Origin: a virus
IMG/VR virus record: IMGVR_UViG_3300021513_000009
Location: 1 to 41,984 of that record
Length of the DNA: 41,984 nucleotides
Strand: one strand, 5' to 3'
The notes under the pieces are model-generated. The model was not told the origin of the DNA. It made no database searches and was given only the letters and a program-made list of their open reading frames with translations. Numbering within the stretch: position 1 is the stretch's first letter; every line of letters starts with the position of its first letter. Shown here piece by piece: positions 10,809 to 41,088 of this stretch. Position numbers and translations under genes: made by a program.

Positions 10809-12533
10809 TTAAAAGAGGTCATCATGATTGTCAGCAACTGCGGTGCCGTTCAGGACGTAGGAACCGTGGACCTTGGCCCATTCTTTTACAATCGCATCTC
10901 CATATACTTTTGCACTTTCATAGACTTGACCTTCATCAAAAACTTGACCATTTCCATAAATTTGTGCAGTTCCATAAACACGAGCTGAACCATAAACTTG
11001 AGCATGTTGAGTAGTATATGCTGTGTCATAAAGACGAGCATTCCCAAAGATTTTAGAATATCCCATCGCTAAAGCTCCACCATAAACATTAGCGTTACCA
11101 TAAATTTTAGCATAATCCAAAACTCTAGCTTGAGAAGAAATACGAGCGTTCTCAAAAACTTCTGCATAAGAATAAACCGCAGCAGAGCTGTAAACTTTGG
11201 CATTGCCATAAATCTTAGCCCAACCATAAATCTTAGCTGCATCAGAAATTTCGGCTTCGTCATAAATTTGAGCATTTTGATAAATATAACCACTAGTGTG
11301 AACTAAAGCAGAGCCATAGATTTTGACATTATCTTGGATATGCGAACCGCCATAGACTTTAGCTTTTCCATAAATTTGAGTATTGGCAAAAGCACTGGTA
11401 TTTTCAAACACCTCGGCCTCTTCAAAAACTTGAGCATTTCCGTAAATTTTGGCGCTACCATAAATTTTAGCTGAATCATAAATGCGAGCGGTTCCGTAAA
11501 TTTCAGCACTACCAAAGACTTCAGCATTGTCATAAACTGTAGCCGTTTCATAAACCTCAGCATCGTCAAAAACTTTAGCCGAACCATAAATATCAGCAAA
11601 GCCATAAACTTGAGCTGAACCATAAACTTTAGCATTCTCAGAGATAGTGACGTTATCTTTAATCTGGGTTGAGCCATAAACTTCAACAGAGTTTTTGATT
11701 TCTACCGCCCCAGACAAATTAGCTGAGCCATAAATTTTAACATCATCAGAAAGTTTAATGTCAGAGCCATTAATTACCACCGTATCAAAAACTTGAACTT
11801 TATCTGATAGGAGGGCTGTGCCGGAAATGCTACTATGTCCATAGACGGAAACTTCATTGGAAAGTTTAAGTGTGCCACTCAAATTAGCATAATCATAAAT
11901 TTTAACATCATCACGGGCGGTAATCGTGCCACTCATTGTGGCATGACCATAAACTTTTACAGAATCCCAAAGAACTACGTCTCCATAAATTTCAGCATCA
12001 CCAAAAACAGAAACATGTTCATGGAGTTGCGCATTTCCATAAATTTTAGCATTTCCTGAAATAGAAACATGGGCTTCTATTTCAGCATTTTCAAATATTG
12101 AAGCAGTGCCACAGACTTTTACATATCCATGTACTTTTGCATTATCAAAGATCTTGGCCTCTTCATAAATTTCTGTCTGGCCAGAAACGATAGCTGCGCC
12201 TTTGATCTCCGCAGAACCATTTACTTCAGCATCATCGAAAATTTGAGCATTGCCGGAGATACGAGCTTCTCCATGTACTTTTGCTTTACCAAAAATCTTG
12301 GCGTCTCCAGAAACGTGAGCCGCACCAAAGATTTCTGCCTCGTCTGAAATAAGGGCGTTCCCAGAAACGCGAGCATCTCCATAAACCTTGGCATTGCCTT
12401 CGATCCAGCAATCTCCGGTTTCACTCAAATTCTCTTTGTTTTCCACCCAGCCGCCAATAGCGCCATCGGAAGTGCGGCGAATTCGAAACAATCCAAAAGG
12501 ACCAACAGGTTTGATGAGTTCATATTGTACCAT
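10809..12533 (-). CDS. Long left-handed beta-helix (hexapeptide-repeat) protein, candidate tail fibre or chaperone
   Basis: This 574-residue protein is almost entirely hexapeptide repeats of the form [AV]-x-[IV]-x-G/D-x, for example AKIYGNAQVFEEAEVFEN. These are the hallmark of left-handed parallel beta-helices. Regular repeats run from about residue 48 to 560, or about 28 coils of 18 residues, which would make a rod near 13-14 nm at the usual 4.8 angstrom rise. The N-terminus (residues 1-45, GGWVENKENLSETGDCWIEG) resembles YdcK-like hexapeptide proteins. As the last tail gene after a beta-helix fibre, a receptor-binding or fibre role is likely. No acyltransferase catalytic loop is seen, though an enzyme cannot be excluded. 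Confidence 0.8.
   Translation of the reverse strand: MVQYELIKPVGPFGLFRIRRTSDGAIGGWVENKENLSETGDCWIEGNAKVYGDARVSGNALISDEAEIFGAAHVSGDAKIFGKAKVHGEARISGNAQIFDDAEVNGSAEIKGAAIVSGQTEIYEEAKIFDNAKVHGYVKVCGTASIFENAEIEAHVSISGNAKIYGNAQLHEHVSVFGDAEIYGDVVLWDSVKVYGHATMSGTITARDDVKIYDYANLSGTLKLSNEVSVYGHSSISGTALLSDKVQVFDTVVINGSDIKLSDDVKIYGSANLSGAVEIKNSVEVYGSTQIKDNVTISENAKVYGSAQVYGFADIYGSAKVFDDAEVYETATVYDNAEVFGSAEIYGTARIYDSAKIYGSAKIYGNAQVFEEAEVFENTSAFANTQIYGKAKVYGGSHIQDNVKIYGSALVHTSGYIYQNAQIYDEAEISDAAKIYGWAKIYGNAKVYSSAAVYSYAEVFENARISSQARVLDYAKIYGNANVYGGALAMGYSKIFGNARLYDTAYTTQHAQVYGSARVYGTAQIYGNGQVFDEGQVYESAKVYGDAIVKEWAKVHGSYVLNGTAVADNHDDLF
10860..12390 (-). repeat. 18-bp coding repeats of the hexapeptide helix
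   Basis: The DNA shows dense imperfect 18-base repeats; on the plus strand ATAAATTTTAGC and ATAAACTTGAGC variants recur dozens of times. They encode the hexapeptides. The identity is high enough that slippage or recombination could change the number of coils. Confidence 0.8.
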
Positions 12534-32872: not shown

Positions 32873-33359
32873 ATACGTTCAAAACTACTTGCGCATCGCG
32901 GCGCGCAAAATTAAATTCTTAGCCCAGCGCGAGGTCCGTAGCCGGACCTTGCGCCGGGCTATGGCAATTGATGAAAGCCAAATTGGAAATGGGGTCATCA
33001 AAGTATACGTGCCGCACTACTGGGCCAGATTTGTCCACGATGGCACGGGACGAGTTCGTGGCGTGTCCATGGTCTGGTTTCCCAATCCCAAAGATGATCC
33101 CCGTCTGCGATGGGGACGACCGATCAAAAGGAGTCAGGTAAAACGGCTACGACTTAGTCGTCGAAAGTTTTACGCTCTAAAAAAGGCAGGAATTTTAGTG
33201 TGGTGTAAAAATCGCCGAGCGATCAAAGGCAATCCCTTTTTCAAAAAGGCCATTCTTAGATCAGGCCCAGCAATCGAGAAACTACTTGGAGATGTTTCAA
33301 AAAATCTTCAAATGGAAATCATTCGAACTTTCGACGGACTCCGCACTAAAGTGTCTTAG
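32865..33359 (+). CDS. HK97 gp10-like neck/minor head protein
   Basis: This 164-residue basic protein has a YVPHYWARFVHDGTGRVRG segment (about 53-71) and ends in a PFFKKAILRSGPAIEKLL region (about 124-141). Both fit HK97 gp10-type neck proteins, where YAxFVExGT and GxxFFxxA motifs recur. It probably helps to join head and tail. It starts with the overlapping ATG (AATGCGTAA) at the end of the portal gene; an alternative ATG at 32826 would overlap more. Its 3' end overlaps the convergent RuvC-like gene by 14 bases. Confidence 0.65.
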   Translation: MRKYVQNYLRIAARKIKFLAQREVRSRTLRRAMAIDESQIGNGVIKVYVPHYWARFVHDGTGRVRGVSMVWFPNPKDDPRLRWGRPIKRSQVKRLRLSRRKFYALKKAGILVWCKNRRAIKGNPFFKKAILRSGPAIEKLLGDVSKNLQMEIIRTFDGLRTKVS

Positions 33360-33894
33360 CGCCCCAAAGAGCCAAACCTATTCCATCCATAACCTGTTTC
33401 CACTCCCCAGGCTTGAAGTGTGCCCCCCGAGACCCCGTAGGGTAAGTATAGCCCTGCGTCCTCTTACAGGGCCATCCTAGGGCCCTACAGGTACGCTCCT
33501 GGTGGATGGGCTTCGGGACGTTGCCCTTCCATTCTCTGGGAGTAGGAATACGAACTAGAGACGGACCAAGAGCGGGTGTCGCTGCTCCAAGAATAGCTCC
33601 AGTAACATGCGCTAGCTTTAAAAGGTCGTTTGGGCGGGCCCGTCCTTTTCCCGTGTAAATTTGTTGACCCTCAATGATTAACAATTCACACTCGTCTACT
33701 AAAGAAATATAGCTCCAAATATATTGATCAAAAAACCACAACAGCTTATCGGCCATAGCAAGAACGGCATCTTTGCCTTTATATTTTTTAGAGACCGAAA
33801 TAATTCCATAATCATAGATATTCTTCGATTCTAAATTATAAAAACCAAACCCACAATCGTGTAGATCCGGATCAATTCCAAAAACATATTTCAT
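33346..33894 (-). CDS. RuvC-like Holliday junction resolvase
   Basis: This 182-residue protein has RNase H-like resolvase motifs: GIDPDLHDCGFGFY (Asp8), LLIIEGQQIY (Glu75) and a final QVMDGIGLALWG (Asp170). This order matches RuvC-type enzymes, which cut four-way junctions and in phages resolve replication and recombination intermediates before packaging. The ATG at 33894 was chosen over a far upstream in-frame start because it begins the conserved MKYVFGIDPD strand. It lies after the polymerase cluster. RuvC-like folds also occur in other nucleases, so the substrate is inferred. Confidence 0.85.
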   Translation of the reverse strand: MKYVFGIDPDLHDCGFGFYNLESKNIYDYGIISVSKKYKGKDAVLAMADKLLWFFDQYIWSYISLVDECELLIIEGQQIYTGKGRARPNDLLKLAHVTGAILGAATPALGPSLVRIPTPREWKGNVPKPIHQERTCRALGWPCKRTQGYTYPTGSRGAHFKPGEWKQVMDGIGLALWGAKTL

Positions 33895-33898
33895 GGTT

Positions 33899-34285
33899 CT
33901 ATTCTTTCTTTTCCTGGCCGGTATTTGGATCAAGTCGATTGTCCCGTCCAATTTTATATTTCGAATAGTGCAATAACATTGCCAAGTTGACGATAGCATG
34001 GGCAAGATGCGGTAGGCCCGACTCGGAATCAAGATCTTCTCCTCGGTGCCATGCCAAAAGATGCCGCATGGCTGAAGCGTAAGGCTGGAGCCAGGGGAGT
34101 CCCTTAGTCCAATTGTGTGATCCGTATTTTTGAGCCCCAAAAGTAAGTACTTTAGCGGCTTCGAGAATAAGAGCTGAGGGAACCAATTCGACTCTAGGTT
34201 TTCCTTCATCATACCGACAAGCCTCATGGGGATTATTAATATCGTGATTATATGGAGATTTAAAACGCGGATCTATTTCTGTCAT
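33899..34285 (-). CDS. dATP/dGTP diphosphohydrolase-domain protein (DUF5664-like)
   Basis: This 128-residue protein follows the phage dGTP/dATP diphosphohydrolase N-terminal (DUF5664) pattern: RYDEGKPRVELVPSALILEA, then VLTFGAQKYGSHNWTKGLPW (about 48-67), RHLLAWHRGEDLDSESGLPH (74-93) and NLAMLLHYSK. The acidic and histidine residues suit metal-dependent nucleotide hydrolysis. In some phages with 2-aminoadenine (Z) genomes this family supplies dGMP, but it also occurs in ordinary phages. The ATG at 34285 follows GGAGG at 8 bases. Confidence 0.82.
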   Translation of the reverse strand: MTEIDPRFKSPYNHDINNPHEACRYDEGKPRVELVPSALILEAAKVLTFGAQKYGSHNWTKGLPWLQPYASAMRHLLAWHRGEDLDSESGLPHLAHAIVNLAMLLHYSKYKIGRDNRLDPNTGQEKKE

Positions 34286-34515
34286 TTTACATGCCTCCAA
34301 GGTTTTCTTAAACTGACCAAAGCCTTTGTTAGATCTAAAGAAGCCCTACGCATTGCTGCACGCTTAGAAGAAACAAAAATATAATGTGCCTGTTTTTGAG
34401 CTTCTTTGATTTCTTTTTTATAGGCTTTTATTTTCTTTAGAAACCTATTTGTCTCATCAATTATTTCTTGTAAATGATTTATCTCTTGCTGAAATTCTTC
34501 ACGAATTGACATCAT
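34282..34515 (-). CDS. Small coiled-coil protein (77 aa)
   Basis: This 77-residue protein is one long charged helix (IREEFQQEINHLQEIIDETNRF...) with a basic C-terminus (RKPWRHVK). Its ATG overlaps the polymerase stop as ATGA, with GGAGG 7 bases upstream, and it overlaps the next gene's start by 4 bases. It probably serves as a small assembly or DNA-interaction factor coupled to the polymerase, but no function is known. Confidence 0.65.
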   Translation of the reverse strand: MMSIREEFQQEINHLQEIIDETNRFLKKIKAYKKEIKEAQKQAHYIFVSSKRAAMRRASLDLTKALVSLRKPWRHVK

Positions 34516-36539
34516 TTTTCTTCCTCCTCTTCCGGTTCCCAAACTTCTAACTTGCCACTCTTAAGTCGAATGGTTTCAGCCCGCTTGTCCCATCGGCGCA
34601 TCAGAGCAGGCTGGGCTTTGACAGGAATTTTTGACATTACCATCTGCATTCCTTCACGCCAAAGTTTAGCGGCCTCGTCCGCTACTTCAGTCATGTATTT
34701 GTTTTCCACAATCTCTAAAATAATTTCATCGTGGATAAACGCCAGAGGCCAAGCTTGATTGTACAGAATAGAATTTTGAGTCCAATCATAGCAAGCTCGC
34801 ACTAACTTGAAAATAGCAATCTTTGCCCCTTCTGCAGTACGAGACTGCAACCCCACGCCATTCGCCGCCGCACAATAGGAAGCTCCCGCTCGAGTCATCC
34901 CCAAAATGGTTTTATACGAAAATTCATCATTGATATCTCCAAGCTGATTAATGTATTGAAAATAATCTTGCATTTCAGGGAAGGTCATAAACCAGAGATC
35001 TTTTAAAGTACGAGCTTCATCTTCTGTTACTACAACACCATAAGTTGCTTTTGCAAACTTCACCATCGTAGCGGCTCCCAGACCGCCAGGATAACCTAGT
35101 CCAACGGGCTTAGCAAATTTTCTCCAATGCTTGTAGAATTTTCGCTCATCCTCATCGTCACTATGCTTCAATGCAACAAAAATTTTATACAATTCTTCAG
35201 AATCTTTATCCGCATATTTCTTTTTGAAATTTTCATCAAGATGAACAGCAAGATGCGCCCCCAAATAAGCGTGTGGATCTTTTCCCTGTTGTAGCAATTC
35301 CGCTAATTTTGAATATCCAAAAAGATCCAACAATGTTTGAGCCAAACTCACTAACTCTATAGCATCGTAATCAATTGAAACCAGAACTTTACCTTCCCGA
35401 GGAAGAAAGAGGTGGCGGGCCCGTGGATCTATTTGTTGAATATTAGTAGACGGATAGAGCTTGCCTCCGTAACTAGAAGTCCGACCGGTCTCCTTCAATA
35501 CATCATATTCTGGGAAGACTTCCGGTGCATCCAATTTTGGAAGTTCAGTAGTAATCAGACGATTCACTTTCTGCCGGTCTTGATATTGTTTTAAGACGGG
35601 AGAAAAGTCGGCCAATTCTCTGAGCATCTGCGCATCAGCAGAAACAGCTCCTTTATCTGTATACCGCAGTTCAACTCCATTGGCTTCCGCCACCTCTTTC
35701 ACAATTTCAATCAATCGCTTTTTATTAATAGAAGCAGGCTTCGGTTTAGTGAATTTATTCGGATTGGTTTTGTAAGGACGCGCAGGCACCGGCGGACGAA
35801 GAACGCCTTCCTCCACAAGCAAGGACAATTTTTCCGGGGCTATTTCTTTCTTAAGTTCTTCAAGGAGTTTTTCTACCCCTTCTTGATCTATTCTAAACCC
35901 TCGATCCGTCAGGTATTTCAAACAAAAATCAGCCGCCGTATGGAAGAATTCAGTTTTCAATGAGCCCGCATTCTGGACCCGTTCTGCTTGATTCTCGTAG
36001 ATATAATAAGTATATTTGGCGTCATTGATTGCATAACGTCGAGCATCTTCCGGATATTGGTCAGCAGAAAGTTCAGAAAGAAGATGATAATTTAATCTCC
36101 AAGTTTCTTCTCCTGATTTCTCTTCATCCAAGTTATCTCCTAGATGGTGTTTTACTAACTCCGCCAAATGATACTTCAGAGGTTTAGTGTCACCGTTGGG
36201 CAATACTATTTCGTCCATCCGCCCTGTAGTAGAAAGATTGAGAAGTTTCTCTCGAATTCTTGTATCGGTGATTCGCCCATCTTCAAGAGCTTGCCAAATC
36301 AAGGGCTCCAAAGCCGGAAAAGTATTTTTCAAGCAATGAAGATCATAACCTACATTATGTCCAACAAGAGTAATTTGATCATTGGCTAACCAAGAACGAA
36401 AAACTTCCTTCATGATCGACGGAGTAGCATCGGTCCAAATATGTTCTTGTCCTTCATAGTAAGCCGTTAGACAAACTACTTTAGGGAACCGAGCTTCCGC
36501 GCCAATCGGAAATGTTTCTGTATCAAAAGCCAAGATCAT
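34512..36539 (-). CDS. DNA polymerase, family A with 3'-5' exonuclease
   Basis: This 675-residue protein has a 3'-5' exonuclease start (MILAFDTETF, Asp6/Glu8; LVGHNVGYDLHCL, Asp106) and family A polymerase motifs. Motif A is LVSIDYDAIELVSLAQ, motif B lies in WRKFAKPVGLGYPGGLGA and motif C is AFIHDEIILEI. Motif B is altered: the usual R-x3-K-x6-YG region reads GLGYPGG, yet aromatic and glycine positions remain. There is no N-terminal 5'-nuclease. It copies the phage genome together with the helicase, nuclease and resolvase genes around it. It overlaps fmdB by 17 bases. Confidence 0.93.
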   Translation of the reverse strand: MILAFDTETFPIGAEARFPKVVCLTAYYEGQEHIWTDATPSIMKEVFRSWLANDQITLVGHNVGYDLHCLKNTFPALEPLIWQALEDGRITDTRIREKLLNLSTTGRMDEIVLPNGDTKPLKYHLAELVKHHLGDNLDEEKSGEETWRLNYHLLSELSADQYPEDARRYAINDAKYTYYIYENQAERVQNAGSLKTEFFHTAADFCLKYLTDRGFRIDQEGVEKLLEELKKEIAPEKLSLLVEEGVLRPPVPARPYKTNPNKFTKPKPASINKKRLIEIVKEVAEANGVELRYTDKGAVSADAQMLRELADFSPVLKQYQDRQKVNRLITTELPKLDAPEVFPEYDVLKETGRTSSYGGKLYPSTNIQQIDPRARHLFLPREGKVLVSIDYDAIELVSLAQTLLDLFGYSKLAELLQQGKDPHAYLGAHLAVHLDENFKKKYADKDSEELYKIFVALKHSDDEDERKFYKHWRKFAKPVGLGYPGGLGAATMVKFAKATYGVVVTEDEARTLKDLWFMTFPEMQDYFQYINQLGDINDEFSYKTILGMTRAGASYCAAANGVGLQSRTAEGAKIAIFKLVRACYDWTQNSILYNQAWPLAFIHDEIILEIVENKYMTEVADEAAKLWREGMQMVMSKIPVKAQPALMRRWDKRAETIRLKSGKLEVWEPEEEEEK

Positions 36540-36867: not shown

Positions 36868-37398
36868 TTACTCCTCACCTCTTACAGCAGCCCGGAGGGA
36901 GTCCAGCTCTTCAGGCAAAAGCGCTCGCTCCAGATTCTCGGGAGAAATCAGCTGAAACACCTCTTCCGGAGAGAGGGCCCGAACATAATTCACGAGCGTG
37001 AACGGCTGACCCGCCTTGGTAGTGATCTGGCGGTTGTTCACCTCAATCACAAGCCCAGCGGCGGGCTGAGTGTCGCTCACCACCATCTCTGCATCTGCCG
37101 CCGAAACGGCATCGGCATCCTCTCCGAACATCGCCCCAATCATCGCCTTGACGTTGCCCAAGAAACTGTCCTTGTCGCTCATGAGCAAGTGCGTAATCTG
37201 CTCCCCCACCCCATGCGGCTCCTCCACAGGATCGAGAGCAATCACCTGGAGAACCACCTTCTCCACGGCAATGAACTCGATTCCCTTCCGGTTCTTGTCG
37301 AGCTTCACCCGCCGAACATACTCATAATAGCGTCCAGCCCGCTCGTAGTTGCCGCCCTTGCTAGCCCGTGCCTTTTCAATTCCATCAAAGATTCCCAT
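36868..37398 (-). CDS. Conserved phage protein, MGIF N-terminus, unknown function
   Basis: This 176-residue protein begins MGIFDGIEKARASKGGNYERAG, then RYYEYVRRVKLDKNRKGIEFIAVEKVVLQVI (about 24-54), a strand-rich part resembling small phage ssDNA-binding-type proteins in general pattern. Later segments are acidic and helical. Its first residues (MGIFDxIxK) also appear at the internal start of the nuclease at 40221, hinting at a shared short motif. It sits between the helicase and the polymerase module, so a replication role is plausible. No family is firmly recognised. Confidence 0.65.
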   Translation of the reverse strand: MGIFDGIEKARASKGGNYERAGRYYEYVRRVKLDKNRKGIEFIAVEKVVLQVIALDPVEEPHGVGEQITHLLMSDKDSFLGNVKAMIGAMFGEDADAVSAADAEMVVSDTQPAAGLVIEVNNRQITTKAGQPFTLVNYVRALSPEEVFQLISPENLERALLPEELDSLRAAVRGEE

Positions 37399-37450: not shown

Positions 37451-39532
37451 CTATACGCCCTTTCCTGGAGATTGTGCTAAAAAATCTTGAAATTTTCCAA
37501 ATCTCTGTTGCATGAAGTGCCTGTCTCGTTGTGAGAGATCCCGGTTCTGCATCCCGTGTTCCTGGAGGAAATCTGGAGAATAGATCTTAGGCAAGGGAGC
37601 ATAGCTCCCAAAAACCAATTTCTGTCGATTACCCGTCGTTTGATGGATGTAGAGCGCATCCGTCAAACAGGCTGCAAACATAATATGGTCGAAGAGAAGA
37701 GTCCGATTCATCTCCACCACTAAGGTATCGGCTTTCTGTCCCTGGCGGTGAGTCCGTCCGAGAACCTGCTCCGCCACCTTGGCCGAGCGAGGCCACTGAA
37801 GGAAGTATTGCTCTTGGAAGGCTTGCAGATTCTTGCCCTCTCCATGGGCAGAGATGCTCGCTACGATGAGGCGACCTTGGTTTTTGGGATTTAGGATTAC
37901 CCGGTTTCCATGCGCCCCTGCGGGGGCGTAGAGCGGCTCTAGGCCCGCTTCTCGCATAGCCTCGACCAACCAGCGGCCCATCTCCTGATGGTAGATCCAG
38001 AGCAAAGCCCCGCCCTTCACCTGTTGCGCCCACCGAATCGCCTCCTGAATCTTGAAATCATCTATTCGAACCTGGGACTGGTCCCGCTCGGGTCGTCCCT
38101 CAAAGTCCAGGCTTTTCACCTTTCTCCATAAATTAGCCAAGGTCGAACCTACACGACGCCCCCCATTCTTGGAAATCTCCAGGCCCACCAACATTGGAGT
38201 ATCTGCTTCCGGATGAGGATTTTTTAGATACTCTCGAAGTTCCGCCGCATATTCTTGGGTAGCGGCATGGTGCTCCTTCGCTCGTTCTAAAATGCTTTTC
38301 GCTTCAGGCAAACTAATCTTTTTTCGTTCTGCCAGAGCTTCTTCACTCGGCCAGATTAACTGATTGTAAAAACCCGAGGACAACTCATAAAGCCACTTAA
38401 ATTTATGAATTCCAAAATCAATTTCGTCCCCGTTTGGAGTCTTCCAATCTTCTTCCACCTTTTTGATCAGCTCCATCAACGGCTCTCCCGGCTGTGGTGC
38501 TGGTTTATTGTGGAAAATTAAACTAGTTCCAATTCCGGATTCAAAAGAGGCCACGACTCCTGGAGCAGAATGTAAACGTTGTTTAAAACTTTTTCGCATT
38601 CCGGCAACCGTGAAAGGAAATGGTTCTGTTGGAAAATTTCGTTGCGCCCATTTTCTAAGTGGTTGCAAAATCTTTAATTGATTTTCTGACGGCTGGACTT
38701 CGGTATCTAGTATTCCTGCCCAGTCCTGAGCCATGGCAATAATACGAGGAACTGGAGAGTGCTCATCCAAAGCATATCGAATTAAATGTTGATAATCCAT
38801 AATGCTTTTTGAAGTGATCGTACCGGAGAGAGCCGCTAAAAGGGGCTGTTTATTTGTAATGTAATCCATCAATCGCCGTGTCCGTGCCGCTCTTCTATTT
38901 TTAATCCGATGCACTTCATCACAAATAATTAACTCTGGTTCAATTGTGTTGAGGAGAAAAGAGGTGTCGGTGGTGGAAAGATAGCTGTACGGCATGATGT
39001 AGCAACCCACCCTTTTTGCCGAAACAATTGCCTTACGTCGAATTTTTGATTTCCCTCCCAAAAAATAAAAAGGTATCGATAGACTGAGGTTCCACCGTGC
39101 CATCGGAATATCTACTTTTATCAATTGTTCATAAACTTGAGACGGAACGATAAGAAGTGATCTGGAAATGTCATTATGATAAGCCCAGTCTGCGATCTTT
39201 AACGTAATCAGCGTCTTTCCACCACCGACAGAAATTGGAGCAAATAATCCTCCATATTTAATAAAACTATTGATAGCTTCTACCTGAACATTAAACAAAC
39301 GGAAACCTTCTCGATATGCCCTAGCATCTACCCATTGATAATTAAGTCTTTCAATTTCTTTCTTTGATAATTTTTCTATCAAAGGAAGATCACAAATACG
39401 CGCCATTTCACTCTTGTGCGAGTCCACCCTAGTGGATTTTCTCGACTGGAGCTTCTCCGTCAAAGGGACAATCTTCGATTCCAATTGTTCCTTTTGTTGG
39501 AGTCTGGCGCGTATTTTATCCGAAAGACCCAT
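37451..39532 (-). CDS. SNF2/DEAD-like DNA helicase
   Basis: This 693-residue protein has superfamily 2 helicase motifs: SVGGGKTLI (Walker A, Gly103-Thr107), ICDEVHRIKN (DEVH, 205-208), ALSGTIT (motif III, 235-241) and, near the C-terminus, AEQVLGRTHRQGQK (motif VI). The first lobe follows the SNF2-like pattern. It would use ATP to unwind or translocate on DNA or RNA, probably in phage replication or recombination beside the Cas4/RecB-like nuclease. The start shares TAATG with the nuclease stop, so the two genes are coupled. Confidence 0.9.
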   Translation of the reverse strand: MGLSDKIRARLQQKEQLESKIVPLTEKLQSRKSTRVDSHKSEMARICDLPLIEKLSKKEIERLNYQWVDARAYREGFRLFNVQVEAINSFIKYGGLFAPISVGGGKTLITLKIADWAYHNDISRSLLIVPSQVYEQLIKVDIPMARWNLSLSIPFYFLGGKSKIRRKAIVSAKRVGCYIMPYSYLSTTDTSFLLNTIEPELIICDEVHRIKNRRAARTRRLMDYITNKQPLLAALSGTITSKSIMDYQHLIRYALDEHSPVPRIIAMAQDWAGILDTEVQPSENQLKILQPLRKWAQRNFPTEPFPFTVAGMRKSFKQRLHSAPGVVASFESGIGTSLIFHNKPAPQPGEPLMELIKKVEEDWKTPNGDEIDFGIHKFKWLYELSSGFYNQLIWPSEEALAERKKISLPEAKSILERAKEHHAATQEYAAELREYLKNPHPEADTPMLVGLEISKNGGRRVGSTLANLWRKVKSLDFEGRPERDQSQVRIDDFKIQEAIRWAQQVKGGALLWIYHQEMGRWLVEAMREAGLEPLYAPAGAHGNRVILNPKNQGRLIVASISAHGEGKNLQAFQEQYFLQWPRSAKVAEQVLGRTHRQGQKADTLVVEMNRTLLFDHIMFAACLTDALYIHQTTGNRQKLVFGSYAPLPKIYSPDFLQEHGMQNRDLSQRDRHFMQQRFGKFQDFLAQSPGKGV

Positions 39533-40221
39533 TAGTTCTGAAGCGCCTCCACGACAACTTTAGCCCGACTACGAAGGAAAGCGAGGACGGCCTTCTGAAG
39601 AGGAGTATTCTCTCGCCCAATTAAATGGGTAGGAATCTCATACATATCTCTTCGCAAAGCATTAATGACCAGTTCTCGCTTCTGATAAAAATCTAAAGCC
39701 TTAAATTTTTCTTCATTTTCCGCTTTGGCGTCCATCATGATCTCTTCGATCAAAACATCCAACATCTCCCCTTTCTTACCTTTTGTGGGGACGCAATTGA
39801 TATAAAGCGTAAATTTGTTGGACTCTTTCTTTTCCTTCTTTTCCTTAGAAGCAGTCTCCTCCTTGCGGGGCCTACCTCGTCCTCTCTTCTTCGGAGGAGT
39901 CGGAGCTTCAGTCGGTTTTTCATAATTGGTAACCTGCGGCGCATCGGCTTTCGGCTGAGGGGGAGAAGGGGGAGAAGACGGAGGAGTGGCCTTACCCCGA
40001 ATCTTGTAAACCTGCTGACAAATGCGGCAAGGCTTTCCCTTAGAATTATATCCAGTCCCCTCACAAGCTTTACAACCCGGCTGAGCCCACTCCGGCGGAG
40101 CCTGCGGCGTTGGCGCTTCTCCCTGCTGGGCCGGAACCTCCGGAGTCGCTGTTTCAGCTTCTTCCTTAACTTCGGCATCCTTAACTTCATTGTCCTTTTT
40201 GATCTTGTCGAAAATACCCAT
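39532..40221 (-). CDS. Probable nested in-frame product of the nuclease gene
   Basis: Within the nuclease gene an in-frame ATG at 40221 follows GGAGG (40234-40230) with an 8-base gap, an excellent ribosome site. Translation from it gives 229 residues starting MGIFDKIKKDN. The product carries the zinc finger, the AT-hook and the C-terminal domain but not the nuclease. The start MGIFDxIxK matches the N-terminus of the gene at 36868-37398, which supports a real start. It would supply a shorter DNA-binding partner of the nuclease, possibly by regulating or assembling with it. Confidence 0.6.
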   Translation of the reverse strand: MGIFDKIKKDNEVKDAEVKEEAETATPEVPAQQGEAPTPQAPPEWAQPGCKACEGTGYNSKGKPCRICQQVYKIRGKATPPSSPPSPPQPKADAPQVTNYEKPTEAPTPPKKRGRGRPRKEETASKEKKEKKESNKFTLYINCVPTKGKKGEMLDVLIEEIMMDAKAENEEKFKALDFYQKRELVINALRRDMYEIPTHLIGRENTPLQKAVLAFLRSRAKVVVEALQN

Positions 40222-41088
40222 TTTCTTGGCCTCCATTTGTTCTAGAATTTTTTTACCCATCCGCTCTAACCGAGCCTTACATCCTTCAAAAGTTTCTGAT
40301 CCAGCACAAAGTCGCTGAAATGCGCATCCTCCATAAGCATTACAGAGCGCTCCGGTACGAGGGATCTCTTCCCAGGTCTTCTTTTCTACTTTAATTTGTT
40401 TTTCTACTTCTAACATCTGTTTTACAATTGGAATAATTTCATCTTGCCAAAATGCTTCAACTTCATCTCTTGGTACTAGCACCGAACGCTCAAAGACTTC
40501 TGGGTTTTTGTGGTCTTTTATGAAGTAGTTATGTTTCAATCTTACATAATCTAGTCCAGGTACCTCATCGATCAAATACTTAGCGTAACTCATCATTTGA
40601 ATGTCTTTTCGCAAAGCTGCTTCAGAAAGAGCATAACGTTTTTTGGATGAAGTTTTGTGGTCCTCCACAATTCCAAATTTATAATTGAGATTGTCTACCT
40701 TGCCCACCATTTCAACTCCAGGAATAACTTGCATTTTAATCCAAGTCTCAATCATACGTCCCGGAGTGCGCTTAATTATGCCTTGGCTCACCGCCTTGGT
40801 AAAGAGCGTCCGCACTAATTCTTGATCCGCCGCATCCATGGCAAAGAAAGTACCTCGCTCTTCCCAGACCCACCACTTTCCAGCAAAAGGATCGACAGGA
40901 TTTCCCGCATTATCCCGCCCATTATCATTAGCTTTCAACCAACGTTCCATAATGCGGTGGAGAATACTTCCCCAAGCGAAGGCATCGCCCATAGGCAAGG
41001 ACAAGCCCCAAATTCGTTCGAGAGCCCATTTTCTAGGACACGCAAAAGCCTTAATTTGTGTTGCTGATATTCTCATTGGTTTTTCCAT
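39532..41088 (-). CDS. Cas4/RecB-like Fe-S nuclease with Zn-finger and AT-hook extension
   Basis: This 518-residue protein has an N-terminal PD-(D/E)XK exonuclease of the RecB/Cas4 type: ATQIKAFACPRKWALERI (Cys17), His44 in GSILHRIMERW, GKVDNLNYKFGIVEDHK (Asp132, Glu142, Lys145), then Cys249, Cys255 and Cys261, which with Cys17 can hold a 4Fe-4S cluster. From about residue 290 a second part starts with MGIFDKIKK. An acidic/proline-rich linker, a DnaJ-like zinc finger (Cys339, 342, 354, 357), an AT-hook (KKRGRGRPRK, 400-409) and a C-terminal helical domain follow. Single-strand end processing is probable. The second part may also be translated separately. Confidence 0.88.
   Translation of the reverse strand: MEKPMRISATQIKAFACPRKWALERIWGLSLPMGDAFAWGSILHRIMERWLKANDNGRDNAGNPVDPFAGKWWVWEERGTFFAMDAADQELVRTLFTKAVSQGIIKRTPGRMIETWIKMQVIPGVEMVGKVDNLNYKFGIVEDHKTSSKKRYALSEAALRKDIQMMSYAKYLIDEVPGLDYVRLKHNYFIKDHKNPEVFERSVLVPRDEVEAFWQDEIIPIVKQMLEVEKQIKVEKKTWEEIPRTGALCNAYGGCAFQRLCAGSETFEGCKARLERMGKKILEQMEAKKMGIFDKIKKDNEVKDAEVKEEAETATPEVPAQQGEAPTPQAPPEWAQPGCKACEGTGYNSKGKPCRICQQVYKIRGKATPPSSPPSPPQPKADAPQVTNYEKPTEAPTPPKKRGRGRPRKEETASKEKKEKKESNKFTLYINCVPTKGKKGEMLDVLIEEIMMDAKAENEEKFKALDFYQKRELVINALRRDMYEIPTHLIGRENTPLQKAVLAFLRSRAKVVVEALQN

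Follow-up and report, generated by a model that had tools for sequence, protein, structure and literature searches.

A Cas4/RecB-like nuclease gene with a probable internal start

The window, the whole virus record of 41,984 bp analysed here, encodes on its minus strand a Cas4/RecB-like nuclease that continues into a C-terminal extension (39532..41088; 518 aa). The gene matches PDDEXK_1 (PF12705; 52.9 bits against a cut-off of 22, E = 6.5e-14) and phrog_69, exonuclease (9.9e-12). The next gene on the same strand encodes a SNF2-type helicase/translocase (37451..39532) and overlaps the nuclease stop in the sequence TAATG. Beyond it lies a small gene (36868..37398, minus strand) that adjoins the helicase in several relatives and whose product is possibly SSB-like. 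A family A DNA polymerase (34512..36539, minus strand) is a further member of this nuclease-helicase module. By eye, its motif AKPVGLGYPGG has a Leu where E. coli position 762 would fall, and the stretch KPVGLGYPG suggests a polymerase of the Leu762 type, which the cited passages of two virioplankton studies describe together with SNF2-like genes (PMC6302109, PMC9069017). The second half of an ORF at 33346-34227 (MKYVFGIDPDLHDCGFGFYNLES...) looks RuvC-like, and small genes like it are found close to the module in L010, L057 and L138. At 10809-12533 the window also encodes a 574-aa protein of short repeats (N/D-A-K/E-V/I-x-G/D...) that adjoins tail genes and resembles a left-handed beta-helix.

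The nuclease part spans residues 1-275 (40264..41088, minus strand) and is modelled by AF2 with pLDDT mostly above 90. It contains the catalytic residues expected of a PF12705 nuclease (H44, D132, D143-x-K145 and Y168), along with four cysteines (C17, C249, C255 and C261) predicted to be the ligands of an Fe-S cluster. All of these positions are invariant in 28-29 aligned full-length relatives, and Q164 is kept in at least 90% of relatives. Because the active site and the cysteines do not vary, the nuclease is complete and presumably active, and the full-length product also seems to be maintained. We rejected an assignment to the CRISPR-associated Cas4 proteins (CAS-Cas4): neither cas1 nor cas2 adjoins the gene, its neighbors being the SNF2-type helicase, the small gene and PolA. 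The PADLOC Cas4 match to the nuclease reaches only E = 2e-4. Similar phage nucleases of pfam12705, with a PD-(D/E)XK motif, four Cys and no CRISPR association, have been described; a text search of that paper for fusions and phage Cas4 turned up helicase fusions but neither the present extension nor an internal start (PMC5704561).

The preliminary description of this DNA had placed a second gene in frame within the nuclease gene, behind a GGAGG 8 bases ahead of an ATG. The minus strand does read CAAATGGAGGCCAAGAAAATGGGTATTTTC, with the Shine-Dalgarno (SD) sequence GGAGG at 40234..40230, a spacing of 8 nt and an ATG at 40221..40219. This ATG is Met290 of the 518-aa ORF (41088..39532) and lies in frame with it; the predicted nested product (39532..40221, minus strand) has the proposed length of 229 aa and the proposed start, MGIFDKIKK. 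Its N-terminus resembles that of the small gene product (MGIFDGIEK), as had been pointed out, and the helicase, which begins MGLSDKIRA, is alike too. Three neighboring products, with starts at 37398, 39532 and 40221, would begin in a similar way. In relatives, the helicase N-termini weakly resemble the internal-start peptide (PWM, compared with other N-termini, P = 0.009).

The mRNA around the site is no more folded than shuffled sequences (z = +1.2). Across the window, the 25 main ORFs contain 199 internal in-frame ATGs, of which 9 are preceded at 4-11 nt by a 5-nt SD match. By itself, the SD-ATG pair is therefore weak evidence, and the case for an internal start rests on conservation in relatives.

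Conservation of the predicted internal start among relatives

A scan with a helicase alignment returned only a near-identical contig. Instead, we gathered further relatives with a helicase motif VI pattern and a Cys-motif pattern, drawing on viral contigs and on bacterial genomes that include Myxococcus, Polyangiaceae and Labilithrix. One relative, ctsHD2 (MW202816), shares the nuclease-helicase-polymerase order with the window. The resulting sample comprises 51 non-redundant nuclease-extension ORFs, 18-31% identical to the window protein; in 51/51 the nuclease reading frame continues into the extension. The nearest contig, L002, is 99.6% identical to the window, with one base different within the gene, and is for that reason uninformative about conservation. 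In the close relative L029 (72..2810), the helicase ORF seems to be split near Walker A by an intein-like insert (...VYDLNVPGTESWVGNNIILHN then TLITLKAADHF).

We searched a zone of 56 codons past the last Fe-S Cys. An in-frame ATG or GTG with a 4-nt SD occurs there in 45 of the 51 relatives (88%), compared to 63% under a synonymous-codon null of 2000 replicates (P ≤ 5e-4). With a 5-nt SD and Ser, Gly, Ala or Asn as the second residue, the count is 31/51 (61%) against a synonymous null of 32% (P ≤ 5e-4). In the same rule-based test, 42 relatives selected more strictly give P values from 5e-4 to 1.5e-3. Seven control blocks score 16-41% under the first rule and 0-6% under the second, each close to its own null. 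The rule-based test with its control regions came after tests based on SD energy, and all are reported here. The best SD energy per zone does not differ significantly from synonymous shuffles (Fisher P = 0.20), and the per-site SD energy gives a mixed result against synonymous sequences (Wilcoxon 0.007, Fisher 0.77). Because these energy-based tests are weaker, part of the SD signal reflects the choice of amino acids (K/E/G).

The SD and the peptide behind the start also point to the same sites. When sites are chosen by the peptide motif only, their mean SD energy is -5.5 kcal/mol, with 396 other in-frame ATGs averaging -2.7 kcal/mol (P = 1e-8), and Ser stands second in 23/51 as against 6.3% after other Mets. 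When they are chosen by SD only, Ser, Gly, Ala or Asn follows in 41/51, compared to 24/73 of the other in-zone starts (Fisher 1.3e-7). Two independent pickers, one taking the best SD and the other the best downstream peptide, agree in 27 of 39 genes, where 15.1 agreements are expected (P = 9e-5). The peptides found behind internal starts include MSLLNRF, MSLRDKL, MNLIDRLK, MSSLLDRLK and MGIFDKIK; individual sites are illustrated by L073 (GGAGGtagaaaaaATG), L161 (AAGGAGGtcgtacctGTG), L039 (AGGAGGaatctGTG) and L022 (AAGGAGGttaccGTG). GTG takes the place of ATG in L039, L022, L161, L076 and L192, and the full-length product then has Val at this position.

The myxobacterial relatives have 67-70% GC, and GGA is nevertheless present at the SD in 17/17 aligned sequences, preceded in all but two by ACA or TCA to spell CAGGAG. 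In these organisms GGA makes up 15% of Gly codons, ACA 9% of Thr codons and TCA 4% of Ser codons. A convincing internal site is absent from the L030 lineage, L138, L125 and L108. Loss of the SD and ATG in relatives had been named in advance as an outcome that would count against the nested gene; the signal is instead kept, and the comparisons support selection on the internal start across the family.

An alternative reading has the full-length protein as the sole product. The peptide M[SGN][LI]..L.K would then serve as a docking helix within the tail, and the upstream Lys, Glu and Gly codons would account for the SD-like purines. This reading draws on the full-length AF2 model, in which a helix of residues 267-313 passes through Met290, on the already high synonymous null and on the weak or negative energy-based synonymous tests. 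However, an SD with a start codon exceeds the synonymous null in this zone only and not in the seven control blocks, and rare GGA, ACA and TCA codons are retained at the SD in GC-rich genomes. Several members carry GTG in place of ATG, the Ser at the second position is typical of N-termini, and in one phage, L093, the extension is a separate gene that starts at the corresponding spot. We consider it unlikely that the full-length protein is the sole product.

The site might also serve as a translational device that reloads ribosomes for the downstream helicase, with the short protein as a by-product. The TAATG overlap of the nuclease stop and the helicase start in the window speaks for such a device. 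Yet in many relatives the helicase lacks direct coupling, with gaps of 200-1600 nt, and the internal start is still kept; moreover, the start sits at the boundary between nuclease and tail, which in the window leaves some 690 nt to the stop. A role confined to reloading seems very improbable.

The tail and its occurrence as a separate gene

The tail consists of a zinc knuckle, an AT-hook-like motif and a C-terminal domain, with low AF2 confidence between them. The zinc knuckle (40018..40074, minus strand; residues 50-68 of the nested product) is a single DnaJ-like unit, CxxCxGxG-x7-CxxC. The central zinc domain of DnaJ is made of four CxxCxGxG repeats. The tail has one CxxCxGxG and one CxxC, and no match to Pfam DnaJ_CXXCXGXG was found. 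The unit appears in 5 of 51 relatives only, with L022, L030, L108 and L144 showing the same arrangement, so that the DnaJ-type zinc finger of the preliminary description stands as one such unit and is overstated as a domain. As for the AT-hook proposed there, the motif KKRGRGRPRK (39856..39888, minus strand) is AT-hook-like and scores 15.9 bits with Pfam AT_hook (E = 0.011), under the cut-off of 17.4. A GRP or GRK core is present in 28/51 extensions, compared to a mean of 5.8 in shuffled sequences, and from this core we infer that the tail may bind DNA.

The C-terminal domain (CTD; 39535..39831, minus strand) had been recognized correctly. AF2 models its 99 residues confidently as an alpha/beta domain (pLDDT 93.2, pTM 0.83). 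A CTD HMM matches 36 of 52 sequences at 1e-17 to 1e-34, namely 35 fused relatives and the separate L093 gene; 16 of the 51 relatives have no CTD detectable by this HMM. No Pfam, PHROG or PDB-sequence family is common to the members, and Foldseek gives no match at E 1e-3 or better in the PDB or in viral models. For a P-loop NTPase/CobU-like fold, the best structural match, 7tm8_A (Z 6.7, rmsd 4.2, 93 aligned), lies within the usual background; the structural matches are P-loop kinases with Z below 7 and are not trusted. By these sequence and model comparisons, the CTD is a new domain family.

The separate occurrence of the two halves was a comparison that the preliminary description had called for. 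In L093, the nuclease ends just past the Fe-S Cys; the extension has a gene of its own in another frame (TAAGGAGctaaaaATG), starting at the equivalent position behind TAAGGAG. The same split phage is seen in L239 and L240, which come from two assemblies and show 4 mismatches over 8,663 bp. A search with the CTD HMM for more split loci found only L093; the other matches outside nuclease genes start at the edge of a locus. The two halves therefore do occur as separate genes, in one phage, and this arrangement shows at the level of gene structure that the tail can exist and work as its own protein. In L078 (1501-2567), the nuclease stands alone; the gene after it overlaps it and encodes a coiled coil of 100 aa (MSDLANTINEMEKN), and there is no CTD.

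The split form bears on the other proposal of the preliminary description, a recent fusion of two once-separate genes, with the internal start as a relic. Besides the separate genes in L093/L239/L240, stand-alone, short-tailed nucleases occur in other modules, and L078 has the nuclease alone. The stand-alone nucleases L003-L006 are part of a different module, with Sak4-like neighbors. But about 50 highly diverged relatives are fused and a single phage was found split. Since the fused form is common to relatives only 18-31% identical to the window protein, the fusion is old. A relic, furthermore, would not hold its SD codons under synonymous constraint. We regard a recent fusion as highly unlikely.

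A two-product reading of the gene

Taken together, the comparative evidence in relatives supports the proposal of a full nuclease and a nested product. The internal start is likely real, the nested gene is probably real, and we consider it likely that one cistron gives rise to two proteins, the full nuclease and a C-terminal tail protein. Ribosomes starting at 41088 would make the 518-aa Cas4/RecB-like Fe-S nuclease with its long tail, and initiation at the internal GGAGG-ATG (40221) would give the tail alone, of 229 aa. The extra tail subunits could join the full-length nuclease through the shared CTD, engage DNA and the SNF2-type translocase, or both. They might raise the affinity for DNA or for a partner, or set the ratio of nuclease to adaptor, in the setting of a replication/recombination module with a family A DNA polymerase.

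Such a strategy has precedents. In two-polypeptide phage endolysins, an internal SD and start codon give the C-terminal binding part of the enzyme as a protein of its own as well, as predicted for the nuclease gene, and this part assembles with the full-length product, at full-length to C-terminal ratios of 1:3 to 1:5, with LysP7951 at 1:5 (PMC9430671). Endolysins, however, are cell-wall hydrolases whose two products were shown experimentally (PMC9430671), whereas those of the nuclease gene are predicted. In type I CRISPR-Cas, the small C-terminal subunit Cas11 is translated in frame within the gene of the large subunit, Cas8, and is a separate gene in some lineages, like the tail in L093 (PMC11899642, PMC13199841). 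The proteins and the complex are different, and the window has neither a crRNA system nor cas neighbors. By analogy with both systems, the C-terminal protein would probably assemble with the full-length protein or with its neighbors. It is possible, if doubtful, that in a widespread phage lineage the nested product is a DNA-binding adaptor with the new domain that forms an unequal heteromer with the nuclease and docks it on the SNF2-type translocase. Docking would perhaps use the N-terminal peptide M[GS][LI]..[DK].[LI], also present on the helicase and on the product of the small gene beyond it.

The coding strategy is known; the enzyme family to which it would apply here and the domain are new. 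In the literature searched, we found no description of a nested product of phage Cas4-like nucleases. Virioplankton modules resemble that of the window in placing a family A polymerase beside SNF2-like and 'RecB-like' genes, and they differ in that the cited passages list the RecB-like gene as a helicase and do not discuss nested products (PMC6302109, PMC9069017). If the two-product reading is true, annotations of a replication module common among environmental phages miss one protein, and a single gene would set the ratio of nuclease to binding partner, the strategy of endolysins and Cas8/Cas11. It would also offer a testable handle on the roles of the SNF2-type translocase and the RecB-like nuclease beside phage family A polymerases. 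Cultured strains of Myxococcus, such as the M. xanthus strain of contig NZ_JABFNS010000115 (L224), also have the module, which puts the claim within reach of ordinary proteomics. Myxococcus genomes contain the nuclease-extension-helicase module in several copies (L202, L219, L220, L224, L227, L231 and L238), where they are probably prophages or phage remnants.
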